A stretch of DNA of 40,892 nucleotides from a virus. The notes under the pieces are model-generated. The model did no database searches, had not been told where the DNA came from, and saw only the letters and a list, made by a program, of their open reading frames with translations. This document shows, one piece after another, positions 3,784-27,675 of the stretch. Within the stretch, counting starts at the first letter, position 1; every line of letters begins with the position of its first letter. The translations under genes and the position numbers were made by a program. The DNA lies in the IMG/VR virus record IMGVR_UViG_3300046499_000314, positions 1 to 40,892 of that record. One strand, given 5' to 3'.

Positions 3784-3790
3784 AACAGAT

Positions 3791-3871
3791 GTGACGACTT
3801 ACATGATTGCGAAATTCATCGTCTTCGTGATAGCGGCGTTCATTTTCGGGTTTATTCGTTCGCGCCGATAA
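3791..3871 (+). CDS. 26-residue hydrophobic peptide
   Basis: A GTG start with AGGGAG at a seven-base spacing opens a 26-codon frame: a short polar start (MTTYM), one membrane helix of about 17 residues (IAKFIVFVIAAFIFGFI) and a basic end (RSRR). It runs opposite to the surrounding late genes and overlaps the last 20 bases of the 3852-5303 gene. The build fits a small membrane regulator, an antiholin-like peptide or a type I toxin-like peptide. No homologue is recognised. Confidence 0.4.
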   Translation: MTTYMIAKFIVFVIAAFIFGFIRSRR

Positions 3872-6814: not shown

Positions 6815-6823
6815 GTTTGCTCC

Positions 6824-8371
6824 TTAGAAGTAGCCGCCGCCGGAGAAGCTGCTGTTCTTGCCGAACAGGTCGAGCAGGCTGCCCATGTTGCTGCCGCTGC
6901 CGCCGCTGCTGCCACCGAACAAGCCACCCAAGAGCTGTCCGCCCATCATCGCACCGCCGAGAATGTTGCCGGCCTTGTTGTTGTACAGCGGCTGGTTGCT
7001 GGTCGTGGTGCTGTTCAGGTTGGCATACGGGCCGATCAGCCCACTGACCTTTCCGGCCCGGTCTACGCCATAGTTCTGGTTGGTGTTCACGTTGTTCGCG
7101 GCCGATCCGAGCAGGCCGGACAGCAAGCCGGAGCCGCCCATGATCGCCGCGTTGTTCTGCGCGTTCGTCTGGAGCTGCGAGTTCATGTTGTCGCGGTTCC
7201 AGTTGGCCACGTTGCCGACGTTCATCAACTCAGCAGCATTGTCCGTGTCGTTGTTCTTGAACGCCGTGGCGTACTGCTGGGCGCCGAGGCCTTGGGTGGC
7301 TGCGAGCTGCCGGTTGCGGTCGGTGTCGTACGCGCCGGCCTGCGCGGCTACTGCGGCATCGGTGTTGTTCTGGCCGAACTGGCTGGTGGCTCGCGCCATC
7401 GCTGTGCCGAAGTCGCCCAGCGCGCGACCCTCTGCCAGACCCTGACGCGAGCCGCCGTACTGGCCCGACAGCACCGCGTTGCTTCGGATGCCCGGCAGCA
7501 CGCCTTCCATCAGGTTCTTGGTCGCGTCCTGCTGCATCCCCTGGAACGCATTCGTGCTCTGGTTGATGCCCTTCTGGATCGCGCCGGTCAGGTAGGGATT
7601 CGCGCCGGGAGCGCCATTAATCAGGCTGTCATAGGAGCTGGTGAGGTTGATGCCGTTCTGTGCCGGAGCCTGCACGTGGTTGCCCTGGGCCCAAGCGAGC
7701 TGTCCGGCGCCGGGCGCCTGATTGCCCTGCATGAGCTTGAGCGCGGCGTTGCGCATGTTGCCCATGTCGGGAGAGGTGAACCAGTCGAGGTAATTGCCGC
7801 TCGTGCTCGCCGTCCGCTGGAGCGAGTCGTTCTGCGGTTGGCCCATAAACGAGGCGAACTGGCCGAGCAGCCCCGGTTGACCATTCGCGCCGTAGACCAT
7901 CGCATCCATGCGCGGATCGAGCTGGTGCTGCACGGTCGTCGTTTGATTGTCCGGCTGCTTGTTCGAATCGACCGCGCCGAGAATCCCGCCGAGCAGGCTG
8001 CCCCAGCCACCCGAGCCGCCAAAGCTGTCAAATAGTCCCATGCCACCACCCCCTGATCCGGCAGCGCCGCCGCCAATGTTGTTAAGCCCCTTCATGCCGT
8101 AGTAGCTGGCAATCTGGTCCGCGATTCCGTGAAACTTGCCGGCCGCCCCGGTGTCGATGCCGTCCGCCGCCGCCTGCTCGTAGTACTGGTCGCCAGGGCT
8201 GCCGTACACGTTCACCAGCGGCTTGTCGTCGCGGCCCAGCGCGGCGTTCCATACCTTTGTCGACGCGGGGTCGATGCCGGTCAGCAGTCGGGTAGGGTTG
8301 TGGAAAATGTCCTTCGTGAAGTTCTTGGAGAAGGAATTTTCGAAGCCCAGCAGGTTTGATAAAAAGCCCAT
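6824..8371 (-). CDS. internal virion / ejection-type protein, Gly/Asn/Gln-rich
   Basis: 515 residues with AAGGA upstream of the ATG. The N-terminus begins GFLSNLLGFENSFSKNF. The centre has many Asn, Gln and Gly, and the C-terminus is very Gly/Ser-rich (LGGLFGGSSGGSGS and following). Residues ~300-420 are helical and Ala/Gln-rich. Low-complexity composition and position between tail and ejection genes suggest a minor virion protein that leaves with the DNA. No specific family is recognised. Confidence 0.5.
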   Translation of the reverse strand: MGFLSNLLGFENSFSKNFTKDIFHNPTRLLTGIDPASTKVWNAALGRDDKPLVNVYGSPGDQYYEQAAADGIDTGAAGKFHGIADQIASYYGMKGLNNIGGGAAGSGGGGMGLFDSFGGSGGWGSLLGGILGAVDSNKQPDNQTTTVQHQLDPRMDAMVYGANGQPGLLGQFASFMGQPQNDSLQRTASTSGNYLDWFTSPDMGNMRNAALKLMQGNQAPGAGQLAWAQGNHVQAPAQNGINLTSSYDSLINGAPGANPYLTGAIQKGINQSTNAFQGMQQDATKNLMEGVLPGIRSNAVLSGQYGGSRQGLAEGRALGDFGTAMARATSQFGQNNTDAAVAAQAGAYDTDRNRQLAATQGLGAQQYATAFKNNDTDNAAELMNVGNVANWNRDNMNSQLQTNAQNNAAIMGGSGLLSGLLGSAANNVNTNQNYGVDRAGKVSGLIGPYANLNSTTTSNQPLYNNKAGNILGGAMMGGQLLGGLFGGSSGGSGSNMGSLLDLFGKNSSFSGGGYF

Positions 8372-8379
8372 AGCAGTCC

Positions 8380-8652
8380 TTATCCGAGAAACTTCCAGGC
8401 AGCCGCGGTGGAGTCGTAGAGGTATGTTCCACGCACGCCGCCCGGCGCAATCGTGCCGTCCAGATAGCGCAAGTCACCGTCGCGCGGCTTCGCGGGCATT
8501 TGGTACGTCCGGTCGAGGCGGCCAGCAGCCAGAGCCGCAACGACGGCGCCGATCTTGGCCTCCATCTCGCGCACGTAGCGGGCCATCTGCGCGGGATCGG
8601 ACGGCGGCTCGCCGGGCTGGTAGGCGATGCTGTTGCTGTTGGTCGGGCGCAT
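8380..8652 (-). CDS. small phage structural protein, unknown function
   Basis: 90 residues. A helical segment (AQMARYVREMEAKIGAVVAALAAG) precedes a C-terminal part that reads like a short beta-rich tail-protein domain (DGDLRYLDGT...GTYLYDSTAAAWKFLG). The start codon overlaps the upstream stop by one base (TGATG), so translation is coupled to the tail protein. Such genes often encode a trimerising tail accessory. Function not established. Confidence 0.55.
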   Translation of the reverse strand: MRPTNSNSIAYQPGEPPSDPAQMARYVREMEAKIGAVVAALAAGRLDRTYQMPAKPRDGDLRYLDGTIAPGGVRGTYLYDSTAAAWKFLG

Positions 8653-10244
8653 CAGAATTCCCCTGCGTCGTTGATGAACGCGTCGAAGCCATCCATGCGC
8701 CACGAATAGGCTTCGTCGGTCTCGAAGCGGAAGTGCAGGTATCGGCCGGTGACGATCGCATCGCATTTCTGCGTCTGGCCAATCGTGTAGGTGGTCGTGA
8801 TCCAGACAGGTTCGTCGTCCGCCTTCTCGGTGGCCGCGACCTTGACCAGCACGGTGCCGCCGGCGTTGCCGGATATGCGCGGTCGCACGCCCATCAGGGT
8901 CTTAAGGCGTTCCGGCGCGTCGAAGTGCACGGCGCGGCGCTCGAGGTAGGCGAACGGCAGTGCACCATCCAACGATGCCGAGGCGTCCAACAAGTACAGC
9001 TTGGCGTCGGCGCTGCCCATCATCACGCGCGCCGCGTCGGGGGTGTAGTCAGGACCGTTCCACGACGAGTTGTCAGTGCTCCACGGGTCGCTGTCCTGAT
9101 TCCAGTTACCGCCCAGGGAGTTGTCCAGCGGGCCGCAGGCGGCGTGCAGGATATCCGGCAGGTCGCGGTAGGTCACCGTCTTGTCGACATAGTTGTAGAC
9201 CAGCGCGCTATCGCAATAGGTCGAACCGATACTCGGGTAGGCGACGTAGATTTCGTTCAGGAAGGGATTCTTGAACACGAACACCTTCTGCTTGTTCTCG
9301 ACGTCGATGTTATGGAAGAAGTGCCGGCGGCCCTTCTTGTCCAGTACCGAACTGGCGGCGTAGCCGTCGTGGATCACGATGTCGATGCCGGTCACCGCGA
9401 AGTGCATTTCAGCGAAACCGGCCACTTCGAAGGAGATGGCGCAATTCATATTGAGCAAGCCGCTCATGCCGGAGACCTTGCGCAGCTTAAGGATGAATGC
9501 CCCGCCGATGTAGTCGATGGCGTAGGTGCCCAACTTCTTGTAGACGATGAACGAATCTTTCAGCCCCAGCCCGTCGACAATCGCATCTTGCCCCTCCGCG
9601 ACATCGAAGCGCCCCGCGTCTTGTGTTGCGTCAGCCTTATCCCAGGTGGTTGGAAGCGCACCCGGGTCTGCGAGGCCGGACCACATGAGCAGTACCGGCT
9701 TATTGACACCGCCCTCGGTGATGTTCAGCGCGATCATGAGGCTCTTGTACTGGCGCAGCACCTTGCACGAGGTATTGGCTGGCCACGCGGGCAGGTCGGC
9801 AAACTTGTGCGCCAAGTTCTGATCCCAGCACATCGGGGGCTTGCCGTCGCCTGCGTTCAGGATTGGCACGCCTCCGAACACAAAGCCCGACCATGCGTTC
9901 TCGGTTCCGCTGCGCGGCGTCGCTGGCGTAATGTCCGTGTGCACCGACGTTCCGGTGACACTCGACACCGCAAACACCTTCGTCGCGGTCGAGTACAGCC
10001 AGTACCCATCCGGCCCGACATTCGCCTGCATCAGGTATTGCGGCGCGGCGCTCGGGCTGTTGAACACTTGGCCGTAGCCAAGCGCCTGCATCGCGGCGCC
10101 GTCGAGGAAGCGGATATTGCTGCCATCGCTCCAGACGGCCGGCACGGCGCCGCCGACCATCGAGGGCTGCGGTAGCTCGCTCGGCTCGATATCCTTGATG
10201 ATCCCGAAGGCACCGGCAGGGGTGAAGGATACTTTGGTGGTCAT
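8652..10244 (-). CDS. tail protein, nozzle / DNA-stabilisation-like
   Basis: 530 residues, nearly all predicted beta strand, with repeated short aromatic/Gly motifs (VWSDGSNIRFLDG, AWSGFVFGGVPILNAGDG, WNQDSDPWSTDNSSWNG). Size, composition and position downstream of the head-tail adaptor fit the beta-propeller type tail proteins of podoviruses (P22 gp10 or T7 nozzle equivalents), which close the portal after packaging. This is by context; no motif proves it. Confidence 0.5.
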   Translation of the reverse strand: MTTKVSFTPAGAFGIIKDIEPSELPQPSMVGGAVPAVWSDGSNIRFLDGAAMQALGYGQVFNSPSAAPQYLMQANVGPDGYWLYSTATKVFAVSSVTGTSVHTDITPATPRSGTENAWSGFVFGGVPILNAGDGKPPMCWDQNLAHKFADLPAWPANTSCKVLRQYKSLMIALNITEGGVNKPVLLMWSGLADPGALPTTWDKADATQDAGRFDVAEGQDAIVDGLGLKDSFIVYKKLGTYAIDYIGGAFILKLRKVSGMSGLLNMNCAISFEVAGFAEMHFAVTGIDIVIHDGYAASSVLDKKGRRHFFHNIDVENKQKVFVFKNPFLNEIYVAYPSIGSTYCDSALVYNYVDKTVTYRDLPDILHAACGPLDNSLGGNWNQDSDPWSTDNSSWNGPDYTPDAARVMMGSADAKLYLLDASASLDGALPFAYLERRAVHFDAPERLKTLMGVRPRISGNAGGTVLVKVAATEKADDEPVWITTTYTIGQTQKCDAIVTGRYLHFRFETDEAYSWRMDGFDAFINDAGEF

Positions 10245-10708
10245 TGCAGCCAGGTGATCGTGATCGAGCCGCCGGGCGGCACGACGATGTTGTAGGGGGC
10301 GCCAGGCGTTACCGGCACGTTGTTAAAAGTCGTGGTTGGCGCTGCGCCACCCGTTCCGCCCTTGAAGGTATTGCCGAACGCGGTCGCCGCTGCGCCAGTC
10401 GTTGCCGAATAACCCTGCGTCGCCGCCTCGAACACGTAGCAGACCATCGTGGACGACACGAACGGGTCGCTAGGCGTGCTCACGGGCGTGTCGCAGTAGT
10501 TGGCCGGAACTGCCCCTGCAAAGAAGCCGTTGAAGACCGGGTTCTGCGTTTGCGAGCCGTCCTTGTAGAACTTGTACGTGATCGTCGTTTTGTTGTAACC
10601 GCTGATCGAACCGGATGGCGAACCGGGCGCGCCGTGGCCGGAGGCGCTGACACTGTTTGTAGTGAGCGGTGCCGTCCACGTACCGTTGGCGGTAAAGGGT
10701 TGCGACAT
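10241..10708 (-). CDS. small Gly/Thr-rich tail protein
   Basis: About 155 residues from ATG 10708 (SQPFTANGTWTAPLTTNSV). In-frame TTG 10753 and ATG 10735 would add 15 and 9 residues; none has a strong ribosome binding site, so the start is open. The pattern FTANGTWTAP followed by glycine- and threonine-rich beta sequence is typical of phage tail-tip or fibre accessory proteins. Its stop overlaps the next start (ATGA). Confidence 0.55.
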   Translation of the reverse strand: MSQPFTANGTWTAPLTTNSVSASGHGAPGSPSGSISGYNKTTITYKFYKDGSQTQNPVFNGFFAGAVPANYCDTPVSTPSDPFVSSTMVCYVFEAATQGYSATTGAAATAFGNTFKGGTGGAAPTTTFNNVPVTPGAPYNIVVPPGGSITITWLQ

Positions 10709-10749
10709 TGGCTGCCGCTTGCGGAACAGCATCGCGAGCAAAGCGGGGC

Positions 10750-11601
10750 TCAACGCGCAGCCCCATAAACAATGCCGTCACCGTACGTGTACAGCGCGAA
10801 GAAACCCTCGCCGTTCACTGGGAACGTAATGCCCGTTTGGGAGAATGTCTGCGTCTTGGCGCCATCGGACTTGATCCACGTGATGCCCGTGGTCGTAAGG
10901 GCAAAAGCGCCCAGGTCCACGCCGCGCACCAGGACCGCGGCGAAACGCCCGACGGGGAAGCCGGTAGCCGACAGCGTGAAGTTGCCCGTTGCGGTCAGTG
11001 TCTGCCCCTCACCATCGGCGTAGTTGATTACCTGCGCCGTGGTGCCGGAGCTACCCTTGTCGATGATCGGTGCGCCGCGCCCATCGAGCGAGACGTACGT
11101 ACCGCCGCCGACAAGCGCCTTGCCGAGGTTGGCGGGGTCGCTGATGCCGGGGATCGTGGCCGAGAATACGAGCTGGTCGATATAGTTCTGCGTCACCGAC
11201 GAGAGCTGAAAGACCGAGCCGATGCGGATCGCCAGATACGGCCGCCCCGCCTGGAGGTCGTTCGCCACCACGTCGCTGCCATCGCGACGCTTGATAGCCG
11301 CAGCGCCCAGCGCCGAGATATTCAGCGTGGCCGCGCCGGTATTCGTCACGGTCGGCACGAACAGCACGATCATGCGGCTGCTGTAGCTCGGCAGCGGCGT
11401 GGCCGGGGTCAGCGTGTAAGCGTTGACCGCGCCGCCGTCAGTACCGGTGACGCACACAGCGCCAAGGAAGCCAGCGAACGCGTTCTTGACCGCCCGCTTG
11501 GTATTGCGGAAGTGGTCGTCGCCCTGGTTCTTGCGCTCCGAGCCGTCCGGTGCGGTCGGGTCCAGATCGGCAATGAAGGTAACGAAAGGTTCGAGTGCCA
11601 T
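10750..11601 (-). CDS. tail fibre / tail appendage protein
   Basis: 283 residues, start preceded by AGGGG. The N-terminus carries a motif common to many tail proteins (QGDDHFRNTKRAVKNAFAGF, residues ~26-45), which probably mediates trimerisation or attachment. The rest is beta-rich with repeated TNTGAATLNIS-like and TGNFTLSATG-like segments and ends in an all-beta domain. Likely a short tail fibre or needle-like component. Confidence 0.6.
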   Translation of the reverse strand: MALEPFVTFIADLDPTAPDGSERKNQGDDHFRNTKRAVKNAFAGFLGAVCVTGTDGGAVNAYTLTPATPLPSYSSRMIVLFVPTVTNTGAATLNISALGAAAIKRRDGSDVVANDLQAGRPYLAIRIGSVFQLSSVTQNYIDQLVFSATIPGISDPANLGKALVGGGTYVSLDGRGAPIIDKGSSGTTAQVINYADGEGQTLTATGNFTLSATGFPVGRFAAVLVRGVDLGAFALTTTGITWIKSDGAKTQTFSQTGITFPVNGEGFFALYTYGDGIVYGAAR

Positions 11602-11604
11602 GGA

Positions 11605-12276
11605 TTAGCCCCTGTTGATGTCGTAGCCGCGAGCGCACAGCACCTGCGGCAGGTCGGTACGCAGCGTCGCGGAGGTTCGCGCGCGAGCGGCGTTGGCGTT
11701 GATTTCCTTGATCGCTGCACTGAACATCTCGCTCCAGAGCGTGACCATGGCGACGTCGCGGATCCACGGCGCGGCGGCGAGCAGGGAGGCGCACAGGTAG
11801 AGGTCGGGGTACTGCATCAGCAGCGCGTTGGTCTGGTTGGCGTCGGACAGCTCGAACTTGCCGCGATAGCGCAGCGTGACCTGATGCGCGGCGTCTGCCG
11901 GACGCTCGAATGCGATATTCGTGCCGTCGATCGCGAAGAACGATGGCGGCCCGGCGTCCGCGGTCACTGCAAGCTGCTCGGGGACAGTCATCGTCAGCGG
12001 CTTACGCGGCTGAACGGTCTCCAGCCATGCGCCCAGCGGCACGCTAAAGTCGGTCGGCAGCGCGATGTAGCGCGAGCCCACCTCAGCCGTCAGCGCGGCC
12101 TCGACCTCCATCTCACGCACCTTGGCGAGCCGGTTCACGCGCTGCTCGCCCAGCATGATGAACGAAGGGATGCGCGCAGCTAGGTCTTCGCGGTGCAGCC
12201 AGCTGGCGATTTCCGACTGCAGCCATGCATAGTTGCGATCCGACGAGGGATCGATGGTTTTGACGACGATGGTCAT
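11605..12276 (-). CDS. head-tail adaptor protein
   Basis: 223 residues. Near the N-terminus a helical segment (YAWLQSEIASWLHREDLAARIPSFIMLGEQRVNR) is followed by VREMEVEAAL and a beta-strand section (RYIALPTDFSVPLGAWL). This arrangement is typical of podovirus adaptor / tail-tubular A-type proteins, which bind below the portal and carry the tail. It has the usual length of about 200 residues. Position between the coat block and tail genes agrees. Confidence 0.6.
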   Translation of the reverse strand: MTIVVKTIDPSSDRNYAWLQSEIASWLHREDLAARIPSFIMLGEQRVNRLAKVREMEVEAALTAEVGSRYIALPTDFSVPLGAWLETVQPRKPLTMTVPEQLAVTADAGPPSFFAIDGTNIAFERPADAAHQVTLRYRGKFELSDANQTNALLMQYPDLYLCASLLAAAPWIRDVAMVTLWSEMFSAAIKEINANAARARTSATLRTDLPQVLCARGYDINRG

Positions 12277-12578
12277 TTGCGCATCTCGGGCGGGCAGTTG
12301 TAGCGCGCCTTTTCCTTGTTGTAGGCGTTCACGCAGTGGTTCGGGCCTTGCCAGAGGCCGAAAACCGCGTCAATAACCTTTTTCCAAAACTTGTACGGGT
12401 AGCGGTGGCCCAGCCTCCCGCAGCGCGAGGACAGGGTTTCGTCGGCCCAGGTCTCGGTGCTCATCGGGTTGACCAGCACGTTGAGCAGCTGGTCGCACGC
12501 GATGAATAGCTGGAATGCCCAGTGCTTCAGGCCTTCCCACGTGAAGAATTGCAGCAGCCAGTTTTTGAAGGTGGTCAT
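12273..12578 (-). CDS. conserved small phage protein, unknown function
   Basis: 101 residues, rich in Trp, Phe and Cys. It starts with a hydrophobic, possibly membrane-associated helix (WLLQFFTWEGLKHWAFQLFIACDQLLNVLVN) and ends with a basic, Cys-containing part (SSRCGRLGHRYPYKFWKKVIDAVFGLWQGPNHC). Similar proteins are found among phage tail genes, but I know no assigned role. Overlaps the adaptor start (ATGA). Confidence 0.55.
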   Translation of the reverse strand: MTTFKNWLLQFFTWEGLKHWAFQLFIACDQLLNVLVNPMSTETWADETLSSRCGRLGHRYPYKFWKKVIDAVFGLWQGPNHCVNAYNKEKARYNCPPEMRK

Positions 12579-12586
12579 GTAGGCTC

Positions 12587-13054
12587 CTACGTGAGCGATT
12601 TGGCTTTGATGAACAGCGCGTCGAGGTCAAGGCCCAGCGCGGGGCCGATCTGCACGACGAGGGGGCGTTGGCGCAGGAATACCTGCGAGGCGCGAAACTC
12701 GACCAAGGCCAGATCGCGCTGTAGCGGGTCAGCGACCATTTCGGTGATCTTCTGCTCGACCATCGCCTCAGTGACGCCCTCAAGTAGCAACGCCTGGATG
12801 CCTTGGCGACGCGTGACTTCCTGCGGGACTCCCGGCTCAGGCGGCGGCATAATCGGCGCAAGCTCTACGCCATCGCGCGCTGCGTTTGCGCGGAATAGCG
12901 TCCAGCTCGGGGACAGGGCTTCGTCCGTGGTGCGGATATAGATCCCTTCATGCGCCGGCGGCGGCTCTTGAAAATAAGAGCCCGTCAGCTCGCCCGTGTT
13001 GGGGTCAAAGGTCACATACCGAAACGGCGACCACGCCGAGGCTTGCGCGCTCAT
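12587..13054 (-). CDS. tail fibre assembly-like protein
   Basis: 155 residues. The N-terminal half is a small Pro/Tyr-rich domain (TFDPNTGELTGSYFQEPPP). The C-terminal half (RRQGIQALLLEGVTEAMVEQKI...PLQRDLALVEFRASQVFLRQ...LDALFIKA) matches a helical region widespread in tail-fibre assembly proteins. It directly follows the fibre gene, where a dedicated chaperone is expected. Confidence 0.55.
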   Translation of the reverse strand: MSAQASAWSPFRYVTFDPNTGELTGSYFQEPPPAHEGIYIRTTDEALSPSWTLFRANAARDGVELAPIMPPPEPGVPQEVTRRQGIQALLLEGVTEAMVEQKITEMVADPLQRDLALVEFRASQVFLRQRPLVVQIGPALGLDLDALFIKAKSLT

Positions 13055-14197
13055 TTAGGCCACCTTCCTGAAACGAATTTCGGCGTAGACCTCGGTGACT
13101 CCAGTAATTCCCGTCGATTTGCCGAACGAGGAATTGTCAACCCCGGCGCTGGACACCGCCCAATGGCGAATGACGATGGCTTTGCTGGCCGCAAGCGTGA
13201 ACTTGCCGCGCAAGATAGAGCGCGACATAACACCGTCGCTGGTAGCTGACATTTCGGAGGTGCCGTAGTCGATGACAGCACTGTCGGTTTGGTTGTAAAG
13301 CTGGGTGATGTGTTGCTGCACCTCATAGGCGGGAGCCGAACCGTCGTACTCGTACGTACCAGCCGGAAGCGTGATCGCATTTGACGCGAGCGATGCGCCC
13401 GAAATATCGTTGTACTTTTGCTGGTTCAGCGAGCGCACTACCCACGATGCCGCTGTCATGGTGGTTGACGTTGACGTACCGCTCGCCCGCTCCTCCCGCA
13501 CGTACATGGTGGGGGTTGCGATGTCCGCAACCATCGCCACCGTCCCGTCCTTGTCAGGGAAGGTGTAGGTGCGCGCCGCCGTGTTCGCGTTGGTCAGGAA
13601 TGAGGTGAACGTGTTGGCCGCGTTCTTGAAATTGATCTTGAAGAGCGTCAGGCCCGCATAGCCGCCAGTCGCGTCCTTTGCGTTAATCCAGTCCGTGATC
13701 TGCTTTTGCAGCTTGCCAAACGCGACCAGGATCGAATCAGCCGTCGTGATCGCCGCATTGGTAGCCGTGGACAGGCCAGCCAGCAGAGTACCGAGGATCG
13801 TGTTGCTGTTCGATGCCGAAATCGAGTCGAAGGCCGAGGACACCGTGAGCAGTGCGCCATCGGACGGGCGCTTGTAGCCGATCATCGTCGCGCCCGAGAA
13901 TGCCGCGAGGTCGGATTTGACCACGTACGGATTGTCAGCCGGGTCTTCGAGGATGATCTCGCGCGTGAAGGTAGCGATCCGCGATCCAGAAAACGTGAGC
14001 AGGTACTTGCCGTCAGCCGCTTTGAAGGCGAAATAGCCGTTTTCGTCGGTCGTCAGCTGGGAAATCGGCGTCGCGCCATCGTCCGAGAACAGCAGGGCGG
14101 GCGCGCCGGTCATGTCGGTAACGGCAACCGACACGTTCTTCAGCGGGCGCGCAACGCCTTGCACAGTCCCGAGCAGGTTCTCTTCGTATTTCTGCAT
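13055..14197 (-). CDS. tail fibre, probable receptor-binding protein
   Basis: 380 residues with GAGG upstream of the ATG. Residues ~1-90 form a small beta-sandwich (NVSVAVTDMTGAPALLFSDDG...), likely the virion attachment domain. The middle is Thr/Ala/Asn-rich shaft sequence ending in an ARTYTFPDKDGTVA motif often seen in fibres. The last ~150 residues (from YVREERASGT) resemble a C1q/TNF-like trimeric head (SWVVRSLNQQKYN...ITLPAGTYEYDGSAPAYEVQQH...YAEIRFRKV). This is the probable host-recognition domain. Confidence 0.65.
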   Translation of the reverse strand: MQKYEENLLGTVQGVARPLKNVSVAVTDMTGAPALLFSDDGATPISQLTTDENGYFAFKAADGKYLLTFSGSRIATFTREIILEDPADNPYVVKSDLAAFSGATMIGYKRPSDGALLTVSSAFDSISASNSNTILGTLLAGLSTATNAAITTADSILVAFGKLQKQITDWINAKDATGGYAGLTLFKINFKNAANTFTSFLTNANTAARTYTFPDKDGTVAMVADIATPTMYVREERASGTSTSTTMTAASWVVRSLNQQKYNDISGASLASNAITLPAGTYEYDGSAPAYEVQQHITQLYNQTDSAVIDYGTSEMSATSDGVMSRSILRGKFTLAASKAIVIRHWAVSSAGVDNSSFGKSTGITGVTEVYAEIRFRKVA

Positions 14198-14209
14198 CGC
14201 GGGGCCTCG

Positions 14210-14662
14210 TCAGCCAGCGGCCGCTACCAGCTCGGCCAGCTTCTCGGTGGTGATGTTGCGCGGGAAGTCGATGCCGAGTTCGGTTGCGCGGGCTTTGAGG
14301 GCGTCGCGGTCGAGTTCGCCGGCGTCGGACGGGGCGAGCGCAGCTTCCCGGGCGGCCAGGTCGGCTTCGCGGGCGTCGAGCTGGGTCTGCATCTCATCCT
14401 GCTCGAGCGCTTGCGCATTCAGGCGTTCAGCCCTGGCATCGAGCTCGGCCTCTTTGGCTTGGAGCTGTTCTGCCCACTTCGTGAGATGGGCCTCGGCAGC
14501 GGCGAGCTTGTCGGCACCTTGCGAGACGCCCTGGGCTGCAGCGCGCGGCGCGTGATCGGCCGGGCTATCGACCCAGCCATCGCCAGCCGCGTCGAGTTCT
14601 TCTTCGCTCTGGAACAGGCGGGCGCCGTGCTCCGGGTGGTACATGTAGACGGGAAATAACAT
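14210..14662 (-). CDS. coiled-coil protein with C-terminal HeH/LEM-like motif
   Basis: 150 residues, GGAGG right before the ATG. The N-terminus (YHPEHGARLFQSEEELDAAGDGWVDSP) is a short module seen on small phage proteins. Residues ~45-115 are a coiled coil rich in Ala, Glu and Gln. The end (LDRDALKARATELGIDFPRNITTEKLAELV) fits a helix-extended-helix/LEM fold. It lies between the coat and fibre genes and may be a minor head or connector component. Function unknown. Confidence 0.6.
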   Translation of the reverse strand: MLFPVYMYHPEHGARLFQSEEELDAAGDGWVDSPADHAPRAAAQGVSQGADKLAAAEAHLTKWAEQLQAKEAELDARAERLNAQALEQDEMQTQLDAREADLAAREAALAPSDAGELDRDALKARATELGIDFPRNITTEKLAELVAAAG

Positions 14663-14671
14663 GCTTCCTCC

Positions 14672-14703
14672 AAAAGAAAACGCCCCACCGAAGCGGGGCG
14701 TTT
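14672..14703 (-). terminator. terminator after the coat gene
   Basis: On the minus strand CGCCCC / GGGGCG form a stem with an eight-base loop, followed by TTTTCTTTT. It is 18 bases beyond the coat stop codon and within the late operon, so coat message can end here unless polymerase is antiterminated. Confidence 0.75.
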
Positions 14704-14721
14704 GGTTCACAGGGCGGCGGG

Positions 14722-15936
14722 TTAGCCGAGCAGGCGGACGGCAAGGCGCGGATCGACTGCCTTGACGCCGTACAGGATGTCGAGGCGGATGATCTCCTCG
14801 TCGGCGTCGATGTCGTAGTCCTTGACCACGCGCACCGACATGCCGTTGTACGACTCGCGGGCCTTGAAGCCAGCCGAATCCGGCAGCTCGAGCGGGCACA
14901 TAACCAGGGCGAACGCGTTCTTGTGGAACGCCAGGTTGGCCGCGTGGTTCGCCACCACCGTGATGGCTGCGTTGTCGGCCGGCGCCGCGGTCACGGTTTG
15001 GAACACGCCCGAGGGGATGATCGGCGGCGACACGGCCAGCGTGGCGTTGCCAGTGCCGTCCGAGTTGACGTCCGAGATCACGGTGAACTGCTGCAGGGCG
15101 CCGGTCGAATCCTTGCTGATCGGGTTCACAGCAAAGACGCCAGCGATGGTGAAGACGTCGCCAGCTTTGAGGATGCCGGTCTGGCCAGCGGTCCAGCCAT
15201 CGGTGATCAGGTTGGACTGCCAGAAGCTGGAACCCGAGGTCAGCGAGGCGTAGGTGACACCCTGCGCACCACCGTTCACCAGAGGCGTGCCGGTCGCGAT
15301 GCCCTTGGTGTGGGCCTTGACGTTCTGGTCGCCCAGGATGTCGAAGTTGGCCATGGTGCCGAGGTAGCCGCGGCCGATGAAGTCTTCGACGCGCTTCTGG
15401 TTCTGGATCCCTTTCAGGCCATCAGCCAGCGACCAGTGGGCGGCGGGGTTCAGCACCAGGCGGCGCTGACCGTCGTCGGGCACGCCGACTTCGTCCATCT
15501 TCTGCGCAGCGGCGGCCAGGGCGGCGAAGGTTGCCGGGGTGGTGCCGGCGGTGCCTGCCGAGTGGTAGACCTTCTTGTACAGCGAGCACAAGTCGGCGTC
15601 CACCTGGTTGCCGAGGCGAATCATGGCCGGCTTGATGTAGCGCTCGCTGTACTCTTCGACCGTCAGCGTGAGGTCTTGGGTCGAGAACTTCCACGACACG
15701 TGCTTGCGCTTGTCGACCACGATGTTGCTGTTCTTCTCGACCACGTCCTGGTTCGAGCGGGTCGCGCCATCGGTCACGGTGAAGTCCACCGGCATGCGCA
15801 CGTTGACCGTGTCGCCCACCTTGACGAACTCCTTCTTGTACTCGCGATGGACGTTGTTGCCCATGACGAGGGTGTTTTCCAGCTGCATCAGCGCCTCTTT
15901 GGCGATGACGGTCGGATTGATGATTGCGTTTGGCAT
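14722..15936 (-). CDS. major capsid (coat) protein, P22 gp5-like
   Basis: 404 residues, AAAGGG seven bases before the start. The N-terminus (IINPTVIAKEALMQLENTLVMGNNVHREYKKEF) and the strands that follow (VKVGDTVNVRMPVDFTVTDGA) match the P22 coat family, HK97 fold; P22 gp5 is 430 residues. Late features include LVMCPLELPDSAGFKARESYNGMSVRVVKDYDIDADEEIIRLDILYGVKAVDPRLAVRL. It follows the scaffold gene, as in P22-like heads, and builds the T=7 shell. Confidence 0.85.
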   Translation of the reverse strand: MPNAIINPTVIAKEALMQLENTLVMGNNVHREYKKEFVKVGDTVNVRMPVDFTVTDGATRSNQDVVEKNSNIVVDKRKHVSWKFSTQDLTLTVEEYSERYIKPAMIRLGNQVDADLCSLYKKVYHSAGTAGTTPATFAALAAAAQKMDEVGVPDDGQRRLVLNPAAHWSLADGLKGIQNQKRVEDFIGRGYLGTMANFDILGDQNVKAHTKGIATGTPLVNGGAQGVTYASLTSGSSFWQSNLITDGWTAGQTGILKAGDVFTIAGVFAVNPISKDSTGALQQFTVISDVNSDGTGNATLAVSPPIIPSGVFQTVTAAPADNAAITVVANHAANLAFHKNAFALVMCPLELPDSAGFKARESYNGMSVRVVKDYDIDADEEIIRLDILYGVKAVDPRLAVRLLG

Positions 15937-15953
15937 TTTGAAGCCCTTTCAGG

Positions 15954-16808
15954 TCACGATTTTTGCGAGGAGCGCCATTTCCGGTACTCGGCCATGCTCA
16001 TGTTTTCCGGGTTGCGCGCCGCTTCGGCCTTGCCGCCGACAGTGCGCACCGGAGCCGGCGCGTTGGTGTTTTGCTTCGTGGTGTTGGCCATGAACATCTG
16101 CTCGATGCGGCCGATTTCGCGAACTGCGGCGAGAGGGGTGAGCAATGCCAGCTCTTGCAGCTTTACCGGGTTCTTCGCCAGGAAGTAGGCGATGTCGGGG
16201 CCGTGGTCGGAGTCGATCACGGTTTCCACGATGTCCGGCCGCGCCGCCAGGGTCTGCTGCACGTGCGGCGTGGTCACCGCCTGCTGGTAGTCCTGGTAGC
16301 GGCCAGAGGCGTCGATCTCGCGTGCCTTGAACTGCTCTTGGCGCGCCTGTCGATCGATGGCCTGCTGGTGCTGCGACTGCTCCGCTTTCTCCTGCTGGGT
16401 TTGCTCTTGGGTGCGCTGAGTGAAGCGTTGCTCGGCCTGTTCCAGTACCCATGCATCGCGGTCAGCCAGGAACTGGTTCAAGTCCTGATAGTCAGCGATG
16501 TTGGGCGCCGGCTTCGGCGCTGCGGCGGGCTGGGACTGCTGGGCCTTTTCAGCCTGCTGCCGCCAGTGATCCGCTTGCCGTTGCGCTTCGTAGCGTTCGC
16601 GCGTCAGTTCGTCGATGCGCTTCTGGACCCCGCCTTTCTTGGGCGTGTCCTGCGGTTGCGCGTCCGGGTTGTTCGGTTCTGCGTTTGCGGGGGGCTGGGT
16701 ATCCGCGGGTTGGGCAGCCGGAGCCTGCAGCACCGCTGGCTGGCCGTTCGAGGCTTCGTCCGGCAGCTGGGTGTTGGCAGTGTCGATTACTTCCTGATCG
16801 AGTGGCAT
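15954..16808 (-). CDS. scaffolding protein
   Basis: About 284 residues starting at ATG 16808, with AAAGG upstream. It is very rich in Gln, Ala, Pro and Glu: a disordered N-terminus (to ~60), a charged coiled coil (QKRIDELTRERYEAQRQADHWRQQAEKAQQ), another helical block (residues ~110-160) and a short C-terminus with NMSMAEYRKWRSSQK. The small basic C-terminal helix and length agree with P22 gp8-type scaffolds, which nucleate coat assembly and then leave. Position between portal and coat is diagnostic. Confidence 0.75.
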   Translation of the reverse strand: MPLDQEVIDTANTQLPDEASNGQPAVLQAPAAQPADTQPPANAEPNNPDAQPQDTPKKGGVQKRIDELTRERYEAQRQADHWRQQAEKAQQSQPAAAPKPAPNIADYQDLNQFLADRDAWVLEQAEQRFTQRTQEQTQQEKAEQSQHQQAIDRQARQEQFKAREIDASGRYQDYQQAVTTPHVQQTLAARPDIVETVIDSDHGPDIAYFLAKNPVKLQELALLTPLAAVREIGRIEQMFMANTTKQNTNAPAPVRTVGGKAEAARNPENMSMAEYRKWRSSQKS

Positions 16809-16886
16809 GAATTGCACCTTTCGGCGTGGTTGGCCCTGTGTAACGCACAGGTACGGGACTACTGGAACTGCTCGGGCGCCTGTGGG

Positions 16887-18920
16887 TCAGGCGAAAAAAA
16901 AACCGCCTTGCGGCGGTTCTTGTGGAACTGGTAGCTGATCGGGCGGCGGCATCGGCGGCATGGGCTCCATCGCCTGCTGTTCGCCTGGCATCGGGCTTGG
17001 GGCGGTCAGGAGCTGCTGCACGGTCTGCATGACCAGCGCCTGCACCTGTTCGGGGCCCATGCCAGCGCCGACGACCTTGAGGCGGTTGGTTTCGGCGTTG
17101 TAGGCGTCGATCAGCAGCTTGCGCAGCTCGTTTTGCTTGTCGTCTTCGACCTGTTGCAGCTTCGTGCCGAGATCGACCAGCTGCTGGTGCATCGCCTGCA
17201 TCTGCTGCTGGGCGGCCTGCATTTCCGGGTTCTGGCCGTTGACCTGCGGCGGGAGCAGGGCTTGCAGGCGCTGCGCGATCTTGTCGGCGTCCGGCCAGTC
17301 CATGTTCTTGGCCAGCAGGTCGCCCAGGACCGGTGCGGCTGCCGGGTAAGCGCGCAGGAACTCGATCATCGAGGTGCGGATTTCCTCGCGTTGGGTGGTG
17401 AACGACGGGCCAGTCTTGACCACCACGTCGTATTTGCCGGTCGAGAGGTCGAAATTGCGCGCCTTGCCGTCCGGGCCCATGAACATCTTGTTGATGGTGA
17501 CGATCTGCGGCTGTTCGTCGGCGCCGAGAATGCGCACCACGCGCGCGGTGTCGTACACGTTCGGGATCAGGTCAACCAGAATGCGGCCGGCGTGCTGCAG
17601 CGAGCGCGAGAGGTTGTCCACGAAGTTGAAGGTGGAAACATCGCCCTCCTGCTTGCGCGCGGTGATGGCCACGCCGCTGGTTTCGTTCGACCTGGCGCCG
17701 AGGGAGGCGTCGTACAGGCCCATGACCGACTTCATATCGTCCGAGGCGTTCATTGCCTCCTGCAGTGCGCCGGCGGGCACGCCTGCGAAGGGCTGGCGCT
17801 GCGGCGGCATGCCGTTCGCTTCCGGCACAACGTCGTATTCGATGAACGAGTGCGACTTCGAGTTTGCGGTTGCCCACTTGGCCGAGGCGGTCTCGAACGC
17901 GCCAACGGGACCGATATACGGGGCTTTGGGCGCCAGCGCCACCAGTTCCGTGCTTGCGGTGCGCCAGTAGTTGAACATGCGCGCCGGATCTTTCGCGTGC
18001 CGCACGAGGCCCATCAGGTAGCGCTTGCCCTCAATGTTGATCTCTTCGCCCAGCACCGGAATGATCGGGATCCACTTGCCAGCCCACTTCGATGGGTCGC
18101 CGGCGAACTCCTGCCCGGTCATCATGTACTGCTTGACCTTCGGGCACAGCACATCGCGTTCGCGGGCCACCTTGATCTGCATCTGGTCGGCCAGCGCCTG
18201 GTTGAACTGGTCGGCGTACACGGTCGAGCCGTCCGAGAGCAGCAGCAGGCGGCGCTGCTCCTGATCGACGCGCCAGTACTCGGCCACGCGCACGAGGTCG
18301 CCGTCGTACCAGCCCTGCATCGACTCGCCCTTGCCGCCGCCTTGCACTGGCTTCGGGTCGAATCCGTACTTGGCCTTGAACTTCGACCGCTTGACCATTT
18401 CCGAGACGAAGCCGAACTGCGGGTTGAACAGGTCTTCGGGGTCGAGGTAGACCGTGAAAGCGTTCGCCACCTCCTTGATCTTGATGTCCTGCTCGAATGA
18501 AGCGTCGTTCGAGTACTCGGTCAGGATGCGAAAGTAGCCGAAGCCCATGGTGACAGCATCATCGAACGCGACGTCATAGGCCTTGTCGGCGTTGCTGGCG
18601 ACCTGGATGTTGCGGATCAGGCCGTTGAAGATTTCGGCCGTCTCCGGGTCGCCCTGGTCGTCCACGGGGCGCACGATGATCGATGGCTTGTTCATCCGCT
18701 GGTCGTTGATGACCTGCTTGAGGAACTGCGGCATGCGGTTGACCGTCAGGCACGGGCGCCCGTCAGCCTTGCGCGCCTCGATGTCGGCTTTGTGCCACTG
18801 CTCGCCCAGCTTGGCAAAGCGCTTGTCCTCGAGCGCGGCTTCGCGGTTCTCGCTTTCAGCGGTTTCCGCGACTTGCCATTGCTCGAGCGCGTCTTTCAGG
18901 ATGTCGTTGTCAGTTGCCAT
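16887..18920 (-). CDS. portal protein, P22 gp1-like
   Basis: 677 residues, close to the 725 of P22 gp1. The start MATDNDILKDALEQWQVAETAESENREAALEDKRF and the CLTVNRMPQFLKQVINDQRMNKPSI segment are typical of the P22-type portal family. The C-terminal ~130 residues form a long helical barrel-like region (QAAQQQMQAMHQQLVDLGTKLQQVEDD) and a Pro/Met-rich tail. The ring of twelve portals is the DNA entry channel and tail socket. The last codons are part of a transcription terminator (see 16894-16918). Confidence 0.85.
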   Translation of the reverse strand: MATDNDILKDALEQWQVAETAESENREAALEDKRFAKLGEQWHKADIEARKADGRPCLTVNRMPQFLKQVINDQRMNKPSIIVRPVDDQGDPETAEIFNGLIRNIQVASNADKAYDVAFDDAVTMGFGYFRILTEYSNDASFEQDIKIKEVANAFTVYLDPEDLFNPQFGFVSEMVKRSKFKAKYGFDPKPVQGGGKGESMQGWYDGDLVRVAEYWRVDQEQRRLLLLSDGSTVYADQFNQALADQMQIKVARERDVLCPKVKQYMMTGQEFAGDPSKWAGKWIPIIPVLGEEINIEGKRYLMGLVRHAKDPARMFNYWRTASTELVALAPKAPYIGPVGAFETASAKWATANSKSHSFIEYDVVPEANGMPPQRQPFAGVPAGALQEAMNASDDMKSVMGLYDASLGARSNETSGVAITARKQEGDVSTFNFVDNLSRSLQHAGRILVDLIPNVYDTARVVRILGADEQPQIVTINKMFMGPDGKARNFDLSTGKYDVVVKTGPSFTTQREEIRTSMIEFLRAYPAAAPVLGDLLAKNMDWPDADKIAQRLQALLPPQVNGQNPEMQAAQQQMQAMHQQLVDLGTKLQQVEDDKQNELRKLLIDAYNAETNRLKVVGAGMGPEQVQALVMQTVQQLLTAPSPMPGEQQAMEPMPPMPPPDQLPVPQEPPQGGFFFA
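16894..16918 (-). terminator. terminator inside the 3' end of the portal gene
   Basis: AACCGCC / GGCGGTT with a four-base loop is followed on the minus strand by nine T residues. The hairpin and T-run encode the last residues GGFFFA, so the terminator is inside the open reading frame and any message ending here would lack the final two codons and the stop. Confidence 0.7.
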
Positions 18921-18926
18921 GTAGGG

Positions 18927-20444
18927 TTATCCCATCCAGCTGCCAGAGGGTCGGCCTTTCGGTTTCGGGGATGCCGGCTTGGCTGGAGCGGCGAACGTGA
19001 GCACGAACGCATCAGCCCTGTCTGGCGACTTGCCGTACATCGCCTTGTATTCCTTTTTCGACTGCATGAGCAGTAACCCGTCCTTGTACTTGTACTTGAC
19101 CGACGCGAGCTGCGACCGCAACTCCCCACACTTCGGCATCGACACAGGCACATCAGCCAGATAGTCGCGTGCATCGCGCCACATCTTGGCCTTCAGGTTG
19201 TAGTTTTTGCCGTCCGACTGCCTGGCACCGGTGTGCACGCCGTGAACGTACTTGGCGTAACGCCCCGCCTTGAGCTGGTCGAAGCACGAGACGCCCGGGC
19301 CGTCGAGCTCGATCACGATGGCGCCGATTTGCCCGCCGGCCGCAACCAAGTCGTCGCATTCCGACTCGACCACTGCAGCGAGCTGTATGCCGTCCAGCCC
19401 GCGCCGGGTCACCTGGGGCAGGCTCAGGCGCCCGCGGCGCTTGTGGATCACGCTCTCGTCGTCACCGAAGTGCGCGGCATCCACGCCGACGATCCAATCC
19501 CCCAGCGGCTGCACGTCTGCGGGGCCGTTACCTTGCGCCGCCGCGATGCTGTCACCATGAATCCATGAATCCGACACCGACGCGTTGTAGTCGATATCGA
19601 TCTCCTGCGCCACGATTACCGGGTCCAGCGTCTCGCGCTGCTTCTGGTACCAGTCGTCGTCCTTGCGCGGGTCCTGGCGCCAGTGGAAGGTGAAGACCTT
19701 GACCTTGCCGCTGTGGCGCTTGCGGTAGAACGGGTTCCCGTTGCCGTTGACCGTGGAGAGGTCGATCTTGCAGTTCGAGGTCTGCGACAGTGCCGCGTCG
19801 ATCGCTTCCGGCCGCTCATAGAAGGCCGATTCGTCCTTGAAGTAGATCGAGGTTCGGTTACCGCGACCGATGTTATCGCCCGCCTCGCCCACGATAGCAG
19901 CGCCGTTCTCCGGGTTCAGGATGCGCATGTGCGGCGCGTGGCGCGCCTCGTTGTAGCCTGCCGGCCGGAACTCCGCAGGCAGCAGCGACACAAACTGGCG
20001 TACCTTCCAGAACAGCGACTTCGGGTCGCCCAGCTTGTCGACGTATTCTTCCTTGCGGCTACCGAAGCCGATCACCACTCCCGGGTAAAACGTCCACATC
20101 CAAACCGCGATGCCGACGCAAAGCCACGAAATGCCCATATCGCGCGACTTCTCGGCCAGCCCATCCTCGCGGCCCAGCCAGCGCTCGCGCACCCAGGCAA
20201 CGAACTCTTCTTGCTTCGGGAACAGCAGGAACGGGATTGTCGTCGGAAGGCCGATTTCCGCGTTACGCGGGTCGAACGTCATACCCCAGTCGTTGATGAA
20301 GTCGACCGGGTTGGCCTTGTAGTGCTCACGCAGGCCCGGGATCAGGCCGGGGTCGGTGCGTATCCGCTGCAGCCGCTCGGCGCGCATCGCGTAGATGCGC
20401 TCGTAGTCGGGAGCCTTGAAGTCGAACCACTCAGGCACCGCCAT
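18927..20444 (-). CDS. terminase large subunit
   Basis: 505 residues, the ATP-driven DNA packaging motor and nuclease. A Walker A-like EKSRDMGIS at ~98-106 (deviant, as in many phage terminases), a Walker B segment with Asp204-Glu205 in SIYFKDESAF, and an RNase-H-type nuclease with GVDAAHFGDD (Asp322), ELDGPGV (Asp381) and KSPDRADAF (Asp475/Asp478). It overlaps the small subunit by 14 bases. With P22-type head genes, headful packaging is likely but not shown by the sequence. Confidence 0.85.
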   Translation of the reverse strand: MAVPEWFDFKAPDYERIYAMRAERLQRIRTDPGLIPGLREHYKANPVDFINDWGMTFDPRNAEIGLPTTIPFLLFPKQEEFVAWVRERWLGREDGLAEKSRDMGISWLCVGIAVWMWTFYPGVVIGFGSRKEEYVDKLGDPKSLFWKVRQFVSLLPAEFRPAGYNEARHAPHMRILNPENGAAIVGEAGDNIGRGNRTSIYFKDESAFYERPEAIDAALSQTSNCKIDLSTVNGNGNPFYRKRHSGKVKVFTFHWRQDPRKDDDWYQKQRETLDPVIVAQEIDIDYNASVSDSWIHGDSIAAAQGNGPADVQPLGDWIVGVDAAHFGDDESVIHKRRGRLSLPQVTRRGLDGIQLAAVVESECDDLVAAGGQIGAIVIELDGPGVSCFDQLKAGRYAKYVHGVHTGARQSDGKNYNLKAKMWRDARDYLADVPVSMPKCGELRSQLASVKYKYKDGLLLMQSKKEYKAMYGKSPDRADAFVLTFAAPAKPASPKPKGRPSGSWMG

Positions 20445-20856
20445 CGATCATCCGCTTGTACGCCTCCTCGGCGGTAATGGTCACTGTGGACTCTGTCTTC
20501 ATCGGTGGCAGATCGTCGGCGCCGCCGTGTGCGACCTTCAGGCCGTATTGCTTCGGCTTCAGGCGCTGCGCGGCTTCGATGCGGGCATAGATGCGCAGCT
20601 TGGCTTTGGCGACAGCATCCTTGTCGGTCTTGCAGTTGTCGGCAATTTCAACGATTTCATCGAACTGCGTATCGATCTGGGCGCTCTTGGCAGCCTCGTA
20701 CATTGCGGCGAACAGCGGCTGCTCGCTCTTCCAGCGGAACACGGTCGCCTTGCTCGGCATATCCTTGCGCTTGCAGATGGTCGCGATGCTGTCGGTTGTC
20801 GAGGCCATCGCGGCGCAGAACTTGGCGGCCTGTTCGGGATCGTATGCAGCAGTCAT
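20431..20856 (-). CDS. terminase small subunit
   Basis: 141 residues from ATG 20856 (a TTG two codons upstream is the alternative). It has an N-terminal helix-turn-helix-like segment (TTDSIATICKRKDMPSKATVFRWKSEQPLFAAM), then helical regions (AAKSAQIDTQFDEIVEIADN...IYARIEAAQRLKPKQYG) and an acidic C-terminus. This is the build of phage terminase small subunits that recognise the packaging site. It precedes and overlaps the large-subunit gene. Confidence 0.75.
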   Translation of the reverse strand: MTAAYDPEQAAKFCAAMASTTDSIATICKRKDMPSKATVFRWKSEQPLFAAMYEAAKSAQIDTQFDEIVEIADNCKTDKDAVAKAKLRIYARIEAAQRLKPKQYGLKVAHGGADDLPPMKTESTVTITAEEAYKRMIDGGA

Positions 20857-20858
20857 CT

Positions 20859-21050
20859 TCAATTCTTCGCTTTCGGCACCAGCCTGACCATCGCCACCAA
20901 GTCCATGCCGCTCGTGCCGTAGCCCAGGTTGCGCAGGATCTGCATCGCCTCGGCACCGTCAGCCATCCGATGCGCGATCGAGGCCAGCGTGTCGGTGTCC
21001 TCGTTCATGACCGCGCGCTCGATGGCTGCGATGTAGGCGGCTGGCTGCAT
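20859..21050 (-). CDS. small protein of unknown function, first late gene
   Basis: 63 residues from ATG 21050, which has TGGAG nine bases upstream. An in-frame GTG at 21077 would start inside a terminator and is less likely. Sequence (QPAAYIAAIERAVMNEDTDTLASIAHRMADGAEAMQILRNLGYG...) is mostly helical. It is the first gene after the late control region and ends next to the small terminase start. Confidence 0.5.
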   Translation of the reverse strand: MQPAAYIAAIERAVMNEDTDTLASIAHRMADGAEAMQILRNLGYGTSGMDLVAMVRLVPKAKN

Positions 21051-21063
21051 TGCGGCTGCTCCA

Positions 21064-21102
21064 AAAAAAGCCGCCACCGCGGTGAAGCGGCAGCGGCCCG
21101 AG
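21064..21102 (-). terminator. late-leader terminator 2
   Basis: A GC-rich stem-loop (GCCGC ... GCGGC with an internal CACC/GGTG stem) is followed on the minus strand by seven T residues. It is the second of two terminators between the late promoter and the late genes. Confidence 0.6.
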
Positions 21103-21137
21103 TTGCCCTTGCTAAAGGGGCCTTGGGAGACCAGCAG

Positions 21138-21172
21138 AAAAGGAAAAGCCCCGCGTCATTGCTGAGCGGGGC
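21138..21172 (-). terminator. late-leader terminator 1
   Basis: GCCCCGC / GCGGGGC with an 11-base loop is followed on the minus strand by TTTTCCTTTT. It lies ~75-110 bases after the predicted late start, where lambdoid phages have tR'. Confidence 0.75.
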
Positions 21173-21185
21173 TTCTTTCCTCCAG

Positions 21186-21224
21186 AGACGCCGAGGGCTG
21201 CCATCAGGCACCCTCTACGCGTCT
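21186..21224 (-). promoter_or_regulatory. long hairpin in the late leader RNA
   Basis: AGACGC / GCGTCT outer arms enclose AGGG / CCCT and TGCC / GGCA inner pairs with a four-base loop TGAT. It is not followed by T residues, so it is not a terminator. It lies ~23 bases after the predicted late start and may take part in antitermination or pausing. Confidence 0.5.
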
Positions 21225-21253
21225 TGAAGGACGGAAATTAGTTGTCAGGGCGA

Positions 21254-21282
21254 AATGTAGCCCTAGTCTTGCGCATTGTCAA
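21254..21282 (-). promoter_or_regulatory. late promoter
   Basis: On the minus strand a perfect TTGACA (21277-21282) is separated by 17 bases from TACATT (21254-21259). Predicted start near 21247. The -35 overlaps the end of the Q-like gene, as lambdoid late promoters follow Q. Confidence 0.65.
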
Positions 21283-21676
21283 CAATCTTCTCGATTTCGG
21301 CCTTTGCCTCGACCAGGGCGCGGTTGAAATGCGACGACGGCCAGATGGGCATATCGAGCTTCCGGCAGATTGCACCCGGTGCCGCGTTCCAGACGTAGTG
21401 CATCCGCAACACGGTTCGGGAGCGGTAGGTCAGCCTTGCGCAGGCGCGCTCGACCAGCTTGGCGTCGGCGTAGTTCAGGCTGGACGACCGGCTCGCCTGG
21501 GCGCCGAACGACGCCGAGCGCATGCGGTCGATCACGATGGCGGTCATAACGAGCGGGCTGCCTCCACGCCTCCCGCCACGCGAATCGGTGCCGCGCGCTG
21601 TGACGCCGCCGCCACCGGTGCGGTAACACTTGCCCCAGTTCTCAAGTCGCGCGCCGATGTCCTTCGGTTGGGTCAA
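21263..21676 (-). CDS. Q-like late antiterminator
   Basis: 137 residues starting at TTG 21676, with GGAGG five bases upstream and the stop of the previous gene overlapping the start (TTGA). The N-terminal RLENWGKCYRTG agrees with the start of PF06530-type Q proteins (LEnWGrW...). The C-terminal half (DAKLVERACARLTYRSRTVLRMHYVWNAAPGAICRKLDM...FNRALVEAKAEIEKI) is the helical DNA-binding-like region of the same family. It is last in the early operon and next to the late promoter, as for Q. It would let polymerase read through late terminators. Confidence 0.6.
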   Translation of the reverse strand: MTQPKDIGARLENWGKCYRTGGGGVTARGTDSRGGRRGGSPLVMTAIVIDRMRSASFGAQASRSSSLNYADAKLVERACARLTYRSRTVLRMHYVWNAAPGAICRKLDMPIWPSSHFNRALVEAKAEIEKIVDNAQD

Positions 21677-26972: not shown

Positions 26973-27203
26973 CTAGTTGGGTTGCTCGGTCGAACAGCCC
27001 GCTGGTGGCGGCTCGGTGCTGACCTTGTGTTTCTTAGCCAGCTTTTGCAGGTTGGAAACCAGCGTGAACGAGGGCCGCTTAGTTCCGCACCGACCGGCCT
27101 CCATCTGGCATACCGTGGGCTGCGAGCATCCGATTTCCTGACCAATTACCTTCTGGCTCAGGCCTTTTTGTCGCAGCTGGGAAATGGTGTATTGGATGTT
27201 CAT
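26973..27203 (-). CDS. Cro-like regulator
   Basis: 76 residues with a Cro/CI-type helix-turn-helix (SQLRQKGLSQKVIGQEIGCSQPTVCQMEAG) and a short tail with few features. It is the first gene of the early left operon, read away from the repressor gene. The start ATG 27203 lies at the expected transcription start of the promoter at 27210-27239 and has no ribosome binding site, so the message may be leaderless. A TTG two codons upstream is possible. It would repress the repressor promoter during lytic growth. Confidence 0.7.
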   Translation of the reverse strand: MNIQYTISQLRQKGLSQKVIGQEIGCSQPTVCQMEAGRCGTKRPSFTLVSNLQKLAKKHKVSTEPPPAGCSTEQPN

Positions 27204-27209
27204 AGGCAA

Positions 27210-27252: not shown

Positions 27253-27276
27253 GTGTTAGAAAGCGACAATATCGGG

Positions 27277-27675
27277 ATGACTATAGGAAGCAGAGTACGA
27301 GAGGCCAGAAAGGCCCGAGGGATGAGCCAGAAGGCGCTGGCCGACAAAATCGGCATCAAGCAGCCGTCGCTATCGCAGCTTGAAAGCGGGGAGTCGCACA
27401 GGACGACCTACATTTCGCGGATAGCTACAGAGCTGGGTGTGAATGCTCTGTGGCTGGAAACCGGGCGAGGGCCGCGCGATGCGGCAGGGGCAGGGCAGAG
27501 CACGCCATCCTCAGGCTCGCTGAACCTGAAAGCCGAAACGGCTACCGAATTGCAGATGCTGCTGGTCTACCGCTCAGCGAACGAGCGTGAGCGGGAGGCG
27601 GTTGACGACCTCATTGATGAGCTGCGTTTGAAGATCGAGGCCCGAGCGAGGGACCAAGTGAAGCTGACGGGGTAG
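27277..27675 (+). CDS. CI-like repressor without peptidase domain
   Basis: 132 residues. The N-terminal helix-turn-helix (TIGSRVREARKARGMSQKALADKIGIKQPSLSQLESG) is of the XRE/CI type; the C-terminus is helical (NEREREAVDDLIDELRLKIEARARDQVK), likely for dimerisation. There is no S24/LexA-like protease domain, so RecA-driven self-cleavage is not expected. A weak -10 (GACAAT, 27265-27270) would put the start at the ATG, with no ribosome binding site. It is divergent from the Cro-like gene over the twin operators. Confidence 0.65.
   Translation: MTIGSRVREARKARGMSQKALADKIGIKQPSLSQLESGESHRTTYISRIATELGVNALWLETGRGPRDAAGAGQSTPSSGSLNLKAETATELQMLLVYRSANEREREAVDDLIDELRLKIEARARDQVKLTG

Follow-up and report, generated by a model that had tools for sequence, protein, structure and literature searches.

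The window, by which we mean the whole 40,892-nt stretch of DNA analysed here, very probably holds the switch by which a lambdoid temperate phage turns on its late genes, one that would work by Q-type processive antitermination with a protein like Q21 and AlpA, loaded at a promoter-proximal sigma pause. A sequence-only reading had proposed a complete Q-like late switch at this place, and the proposal has strong support from the gene order, from the predicted fold of the Q-like protein, from profile matches that tie its family to known Q families, and from a conserved promoter and terminator that every testable relative has. The kind of system, a Q late switch, is textbook; what appear to be new are the assignment of a branch that includes gp47 of Burkholderia phage KS9, a candidate binding site, a near-invariant transcribed start and conserved leader hairpins. 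In a literature search with most subscription journals outside its scope, we found no paper describing this Q branch, its DNA site or its hairpins.

From the anatomy described below, we infer how the switch would operate. The sigma70 promoter in which the Q-like gene ends would fire and RNA polymerase would stop at one of two terminators, T1 or T2, so that without the Q-like protein only a short leader RNA would be made and the late genes would stay silent. Once the early operon makes the Q-like protein, it would bind DNA in the promoter spacer and be loaded at a sigma-dependent pause, as for 21Q (the Q protein of phage 21) and AlpA, and the loaded protein would then give processive antitermination, with read-through of T1 and T2 into the late operon.

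Gene order and elements of the switch

The window is an integrated lambdoid phage with its integrase at the right end. A cI-like repressor gene (27253-27675, plus strand) faces a cro-like gene (26973-27209, minus strand), and the minus-strand order is replication protein, DnaB-like helicase, RusA, Q-like gene and late genes. The Q-like gene sits between RusA and the terminase genes, that is, at the end of the early operon and just 5' of the late promoter; the Q gene of lambda has the same place in the gene order. The promoter TTGACA-N17-TACATT, long hairpin and two terminators that the earlier reading had listed after the Q-like gene are all present, on the minus strand. The elements are as follows:

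21263-21676 (minus): gene for the Q-like antiterminator, 137 aa, starting at TTG, coordinates with the stop codon; phrog_19609, with family matches to phrog_79 and PF06530 and a predicted fold like Q21 and sigma region 4
21277-21282 (minus): -35 element TTGACA, within the last codons of the Q-like gene, kept in relatives
21260-21276 (minus): 17-nt spacer, candidate Q-binding site, with conservation beyond the search pattern
21254-21259 (minus): -10 element TACATT
21230-21246 (minus): transcript start ACAACTAATTTCCGTC, +1 at about 21245, near-invariant in relatives, with a candidate -10-like pause sequence GACAAC (21246-21241) from comparison of its register with AlpA
21220-21233 (minus): hairpin Ha, CGUC-loop-GACG, paired in 50/50 distinct leaders with compensatory types
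21179-21230 (minus): long leader hairpin, from fold and alignment; conserved part Hb 21215-21193, cap GGGUGCC-UGAU-GGCAGCCC
21138-21174 (minus): intrinsic terminator T1, hairpin of -20.4 kcal/mol with T-rich tail, release at about +105
21063-21099 (minus): intrinsic terminator T2, -24.2 kcal/mol, 7 T, at about +180
2579-21050 (minus): late operon, with a small ORF, Sf6-type small terminase, large terminase, P22-like portal and coat, virion and tail genes, endolysin and holin
16902-16914 (minus): terminator-like hairpin inside the operon, close to where the portal gene ends, -13.7 kcal/mol
14678-14703 (minus): internal terminator 3' of the coat gene, -18.5 kcal/mol
3743-3760 (minus): internal terminator 5' of the endolysin gene, -10.4 kcal/mol

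T1 was missed by a consensus scanner because its loop is too long, and is visible in the fold. The last three entries are the internal late-operon terminators of the earlier reading, which we recovered; terminator-like sites as a class do not exceed shuffles (9 vs 13 +/- 4.4), so each of the three rests on its own strength.

Several further features of the window are recorded here as observations in their own right. The small ORF that separates T2 from the gene for the small terminase (20859-21050, minus strand) has no family match. An exact direct repeat of 127 nt (1481-1607 and 40766-40892), each copy with a tRNA-His gene and the second ending at the contig end, fits a phage of ~39.3 kb integrated at tRNA-His, though the exact 127 nt may be an assembler overlap rather than an att core. 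A strong promoter, TTGACT-N18-TATAAT (27239-27203, minus strand), lies so close to the cro-like gene, whose ATG follows within about 7 nt, that the early message may be leaderless. Finally, a 571-aa open frame (36376-38091, plus strand) matches the restriction alleviation protein Lar (PF14354) in its N-terminal part.

The Q-like protein and its family

According to the earlier reading, the Q-like gene has only weak similarity to the known Q families, and profile searches agree. The HMM search suggested alongside that description did not place the window protein itself: searches of Pfam and NCBIfam gave no match, the cutoff of PF06530 was not reached, and the protein belongs to phrog_19609, listed as 'unknown function', while matching neither phrog_79 nor PF06530. 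Its family does make the connection. A search started from an alignment of four sequences found relatives encoded at 50 viral loci, and among the 35 members of alignment A2, 14 match phrog_79 ('anti-termination protein Q-like', best 1.6e-10) and 7 match PF06530; one relative, L081, scores 31.4 bits against a PF06530 gathering cutoff of 26 and has a promoter and leader of the same type as the window. Some family members also match phrog_248 and phrog_36, PHROGs called transcriptional activator/regulator. In the record of locus L009 (G002:C1:19670-20466), two adjacent Q-like family matches occur in one phage, one of them apparently shortened.

Neither phmmer nor profile comparison gave a direct sequence match between the window protein and solved Q structures, so a comparison of folds was needed. 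The AlphaFold model of the window protein has six helices, and its best PDB match by Foldseek is Q21 (6p18_Q, probability 0.99, with a weak E of 0.07); most of the next matches are sigma factors and region-4 domains, among them 3hug_K with a TM of 0.78 (by target length). In a second model, of the relative L070 and likewise with six helices, sigma region 4 ranks first and Q21 chains appear at ranks 8 and 18; the two models have a mean pLDDT of 72 and 77, with the lowest values in the part that corresponds to the ring of Q21. A search of a viral structure library returned mostly unnamed or automatically named proteins. The six helices of 21Q (PDB 6p18, 6jnx; PMC6606751), whose H3-H6 resemble sigma region 4, are matched in order by those predicted for the window protein. 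Kinship with Q21 thus has its support in the predicted fold and in the profiles of the family, and none from comparing the sequences directly.

The branch reaches well beyond the window. Burkholderia phage KS9 encodes a homolog, gp47 (annotated hypothetical; 42% over 72 aa), whose locus has the same promoter-hairpin-terminator layout and differs from the window in a C-terminal extension, a weaker -35 and other hairpin sequences. Genome contigs yielded no relative with the single Q-like protein as query, and two Massilia loci, both carrying the leader, with a profile query; a DNA similarity search against phage records gave only short chance matches. In VarioGold one gene, which need not be of the window's branch, has been called Q by HHpred (PMC9658991). 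The branch to which the window belongs is large and unrecognised; its members sit in temperate phages, with Burkholderia and Massilia among the sources.

Late promoter, candidate binding site and terminator

The window promoter (21282-21254) matches sigma70 at 10/12 positions and overlaps the 3' end of the Q-like gene. The combination of a promoter and an ACAA[CT] start after it is present in 46/46 relatives with enough downstream DNA, some of these loci being near duplicates, at -19 to +1173 nt from the Q-like stop codon; locus L003 also has promoter and start, with CACAAT as its -10. A loose promoter + ACAA[CT] pattern matched 53 distinct sites in the 1.24 Mb of DNA that was fetched (both strands) and 0 in shuffled DNA, and these 53 comprise 51 with the conserved transcribed start, L031, and one that is apparently spurious. 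The arrangement of promoter and start is far beyond chance. Separately, matches to a GGTGCCTGATGGCAGCC pattern in L007, L008 and L012-L016 were discarded on inspection as unrelated coding DNA.

Some hexamer positions and the opening bases of the transcript were set by the search patterns themselves, so the informative conservation is that of the part left free, the spacer. Across 44 promoters it carries GGAAA at positions 4-8 and CTCAGCAG at 10-17, with GAAA, C12 and G14 common to the Burkholderia group too; the window spacer retains 5/17 positions of the family consensus GCCGGAAATCTCAGCAG (G5, A7, A8, A13 and G14), and the window protein is also divergent. 21Q and AlpA bind between -35 and -10 (PMC6606751, PMC9371919), and on the conservation seen here the GGAAA..CTCAGCAG motif is likely the Q-binding site. 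A 6-bp direct repeat as in the 21Q binding site was not seen by eye in the consensus. Downstream, +1 to +16 (ACAACTTAATTCCGTC) hardly varies across the window and soil groups, and -1 to +5 reads NACAA[CT], in the register of the AlpA -10-like sequence CACGAT (PMC9371919). The match is imperfect, and because most leaders have C instead of T at the last position, a pause here is something that we infer.

The earlier reading had suggested that the leader might contain a new recognition element. Conservation instead points to the spacer DNA together with +1 to +16 of the transcript, where known Q systems also have their elements, so that the recognition element is probably promoter DNA and not leader RNA. 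The suggestion thus holds only in part; the leader hairpins are conserved as well. In these respects the window resembles phage 21, where the Q gene likewise lies just 5' of the late promoter, the Q-binding site falls between -35 and -10 like the candidate site here and the leader has a terminator, and departs from it in the lack of an evident TGAGCA-type direct repeat and in the conserved leader hairpins and near-invariant +1 to +16 of its branch. AlpA of Pseudomonas aeruginosa (PMC9371919) has a site between the hexamers that is single rather than repeated, a -10-like sequence at -1 to +5 and an intrinsic terminator downstream, and the window has a candidate for each of the first two and a terminator likewise; AlpA controls host lysis genes, and the likeness is one of promoter layout.

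The terminator, too, keeps a nearly fixed place. All 52 leaders first collected have hairpins and an intrinsic terminator at +90 to +113; the relatives' terminators lie mostly at +90 to +116, and in the enlarged leader set a terminator is found within 140 nt in 45/47. Locus L003 also has a second terminator, 5' of its small terminase gene; we observe that the terminase gene follows it directly there, in place of the small ORF that intervenes in the window.

This regularity weighs against the strongest competing explanation, in which the Q-like protein would activate the late promoter in the manner of a sigma factor or of ArpU, and the terminators merely insulate the late operon. The matches to phrog_248 and phrog_36, a fold that is common to sigma region 4, and the poor -35 elements of the Burkholderia group (TTGCGA/TTGCGG) would all suit an activator. 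Against this, the window and soil group promoters have a near-consensus -35 and a good -10, phrog_79 and PF06530 are antiterminator families, and every leader has a strong terminator at a nearly fixed distance, past which an activator alone could not carry the transcript. We consider activation improbable, and antitermination the better account of the same protein.

Leader RNA and what the branch offers

Between the late promoter and the end of T1 lies a leader of ~105 nt with two hairpins, whose folding is far more stable than that of shuffles (z -5.96). Ha, at +13, and the outer stem of the long hairpin share the same bases and are alternatives. In the 50 distinct leaders the Ha pair types are CGUC/GACG in 43, CGGU/ACCG in 3, CAUC/GAUG in 3 and CGUC/GAUG in 1. 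In Hb the stem is conserved and one of its pairs covaries (C-G 25, G-C 13, U-G 3), the loop varies, and a G that is unpaired or in a wobble pair never changes; the pairing of its outer stem is 0.69, compared with a mean of 0.567 and a maximum of 0.641 in 2000 permutations, a control in which sequence relatedness remains. The Hb cap GGTTCCCTGATGGGAGCC occurs at 17 places in 2.9 million viral contigs, 16 of them leaders of the Q branch. The 17th (L018:437-530) is the leader of a phage whose promoter is different and whose Q-like gene is a distant relation (E 3.6e-4 to phrog_79; profile probability 91%), and terminase genes follow it. A different hairpin (GACGAGCGATTCCACCAGG...) occupies the place of Hb in L062, L068, L069, L070, L073 and L075, with position kept and sequence not.

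Judged by these pairing patterns, Ha and Hb look selected as RNA. A tentative and rather unlikely extension of the switch is that they form a functional RNA part, serving the loading or upkeep of the antitermination complex, or that the terminated leader acts in trans, so that a DNA-loaded protein and an RNA element would together make up the switch. Far less probable is that the leader is a stand-alone RNA, either put-like without a protein or a trans-acting terminated small RNA, with the late genes expressed otherwise. The near-invariant 5' end, covarying hairpins and U-rich end would fit such an RNA, as would the recurrence of the Hb cap beside a distant Q-like gene with another promoter; yet a Q-type gene, close or distant, lies upstream of the leader wherever the record is long enough, an Rfam search of the leader returned nothing at cutoff (BcKCsr2, ctRNA and CcsR1 scored weakly, below it), and a search within the window for an antisense partner of the leader 5' end gave one 12/16 match and none that convinces. 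The put RNA of HK022 (PMC9378689) is similarly a folded leader RNA linked to antitermination, but it is RNA-only and its sites are at early promoters, whereas the window leader is at a late promoter with a Q-type gene, and the structures differ as far as described. Leader-peptide attenuation, in which translation of a short frame would control termination, was rejected as having almost no chance: the window does have an ATG in the cap after AGAGGG with a frame open through T1, but the alignment puts this ATG in the variable loop, and it is missing in L031, L049, L056, L066, L079 and L081 while the stem is kept.

Q-type antitermination, as the preferred reading, suggests what a family of phage proteins filed under 'unknown function' is likely to do. 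It also lets late promoters, pause regions and leader structures be predicted in dozens of temperate phages, among them Burkholderia and Massilia prophages whose late control is unannotated. The near-invariant +1 to +16 and the covarying hairpins of this branch make a natural test set for the use of leader RNA by Q systems, which lies outside the current model.
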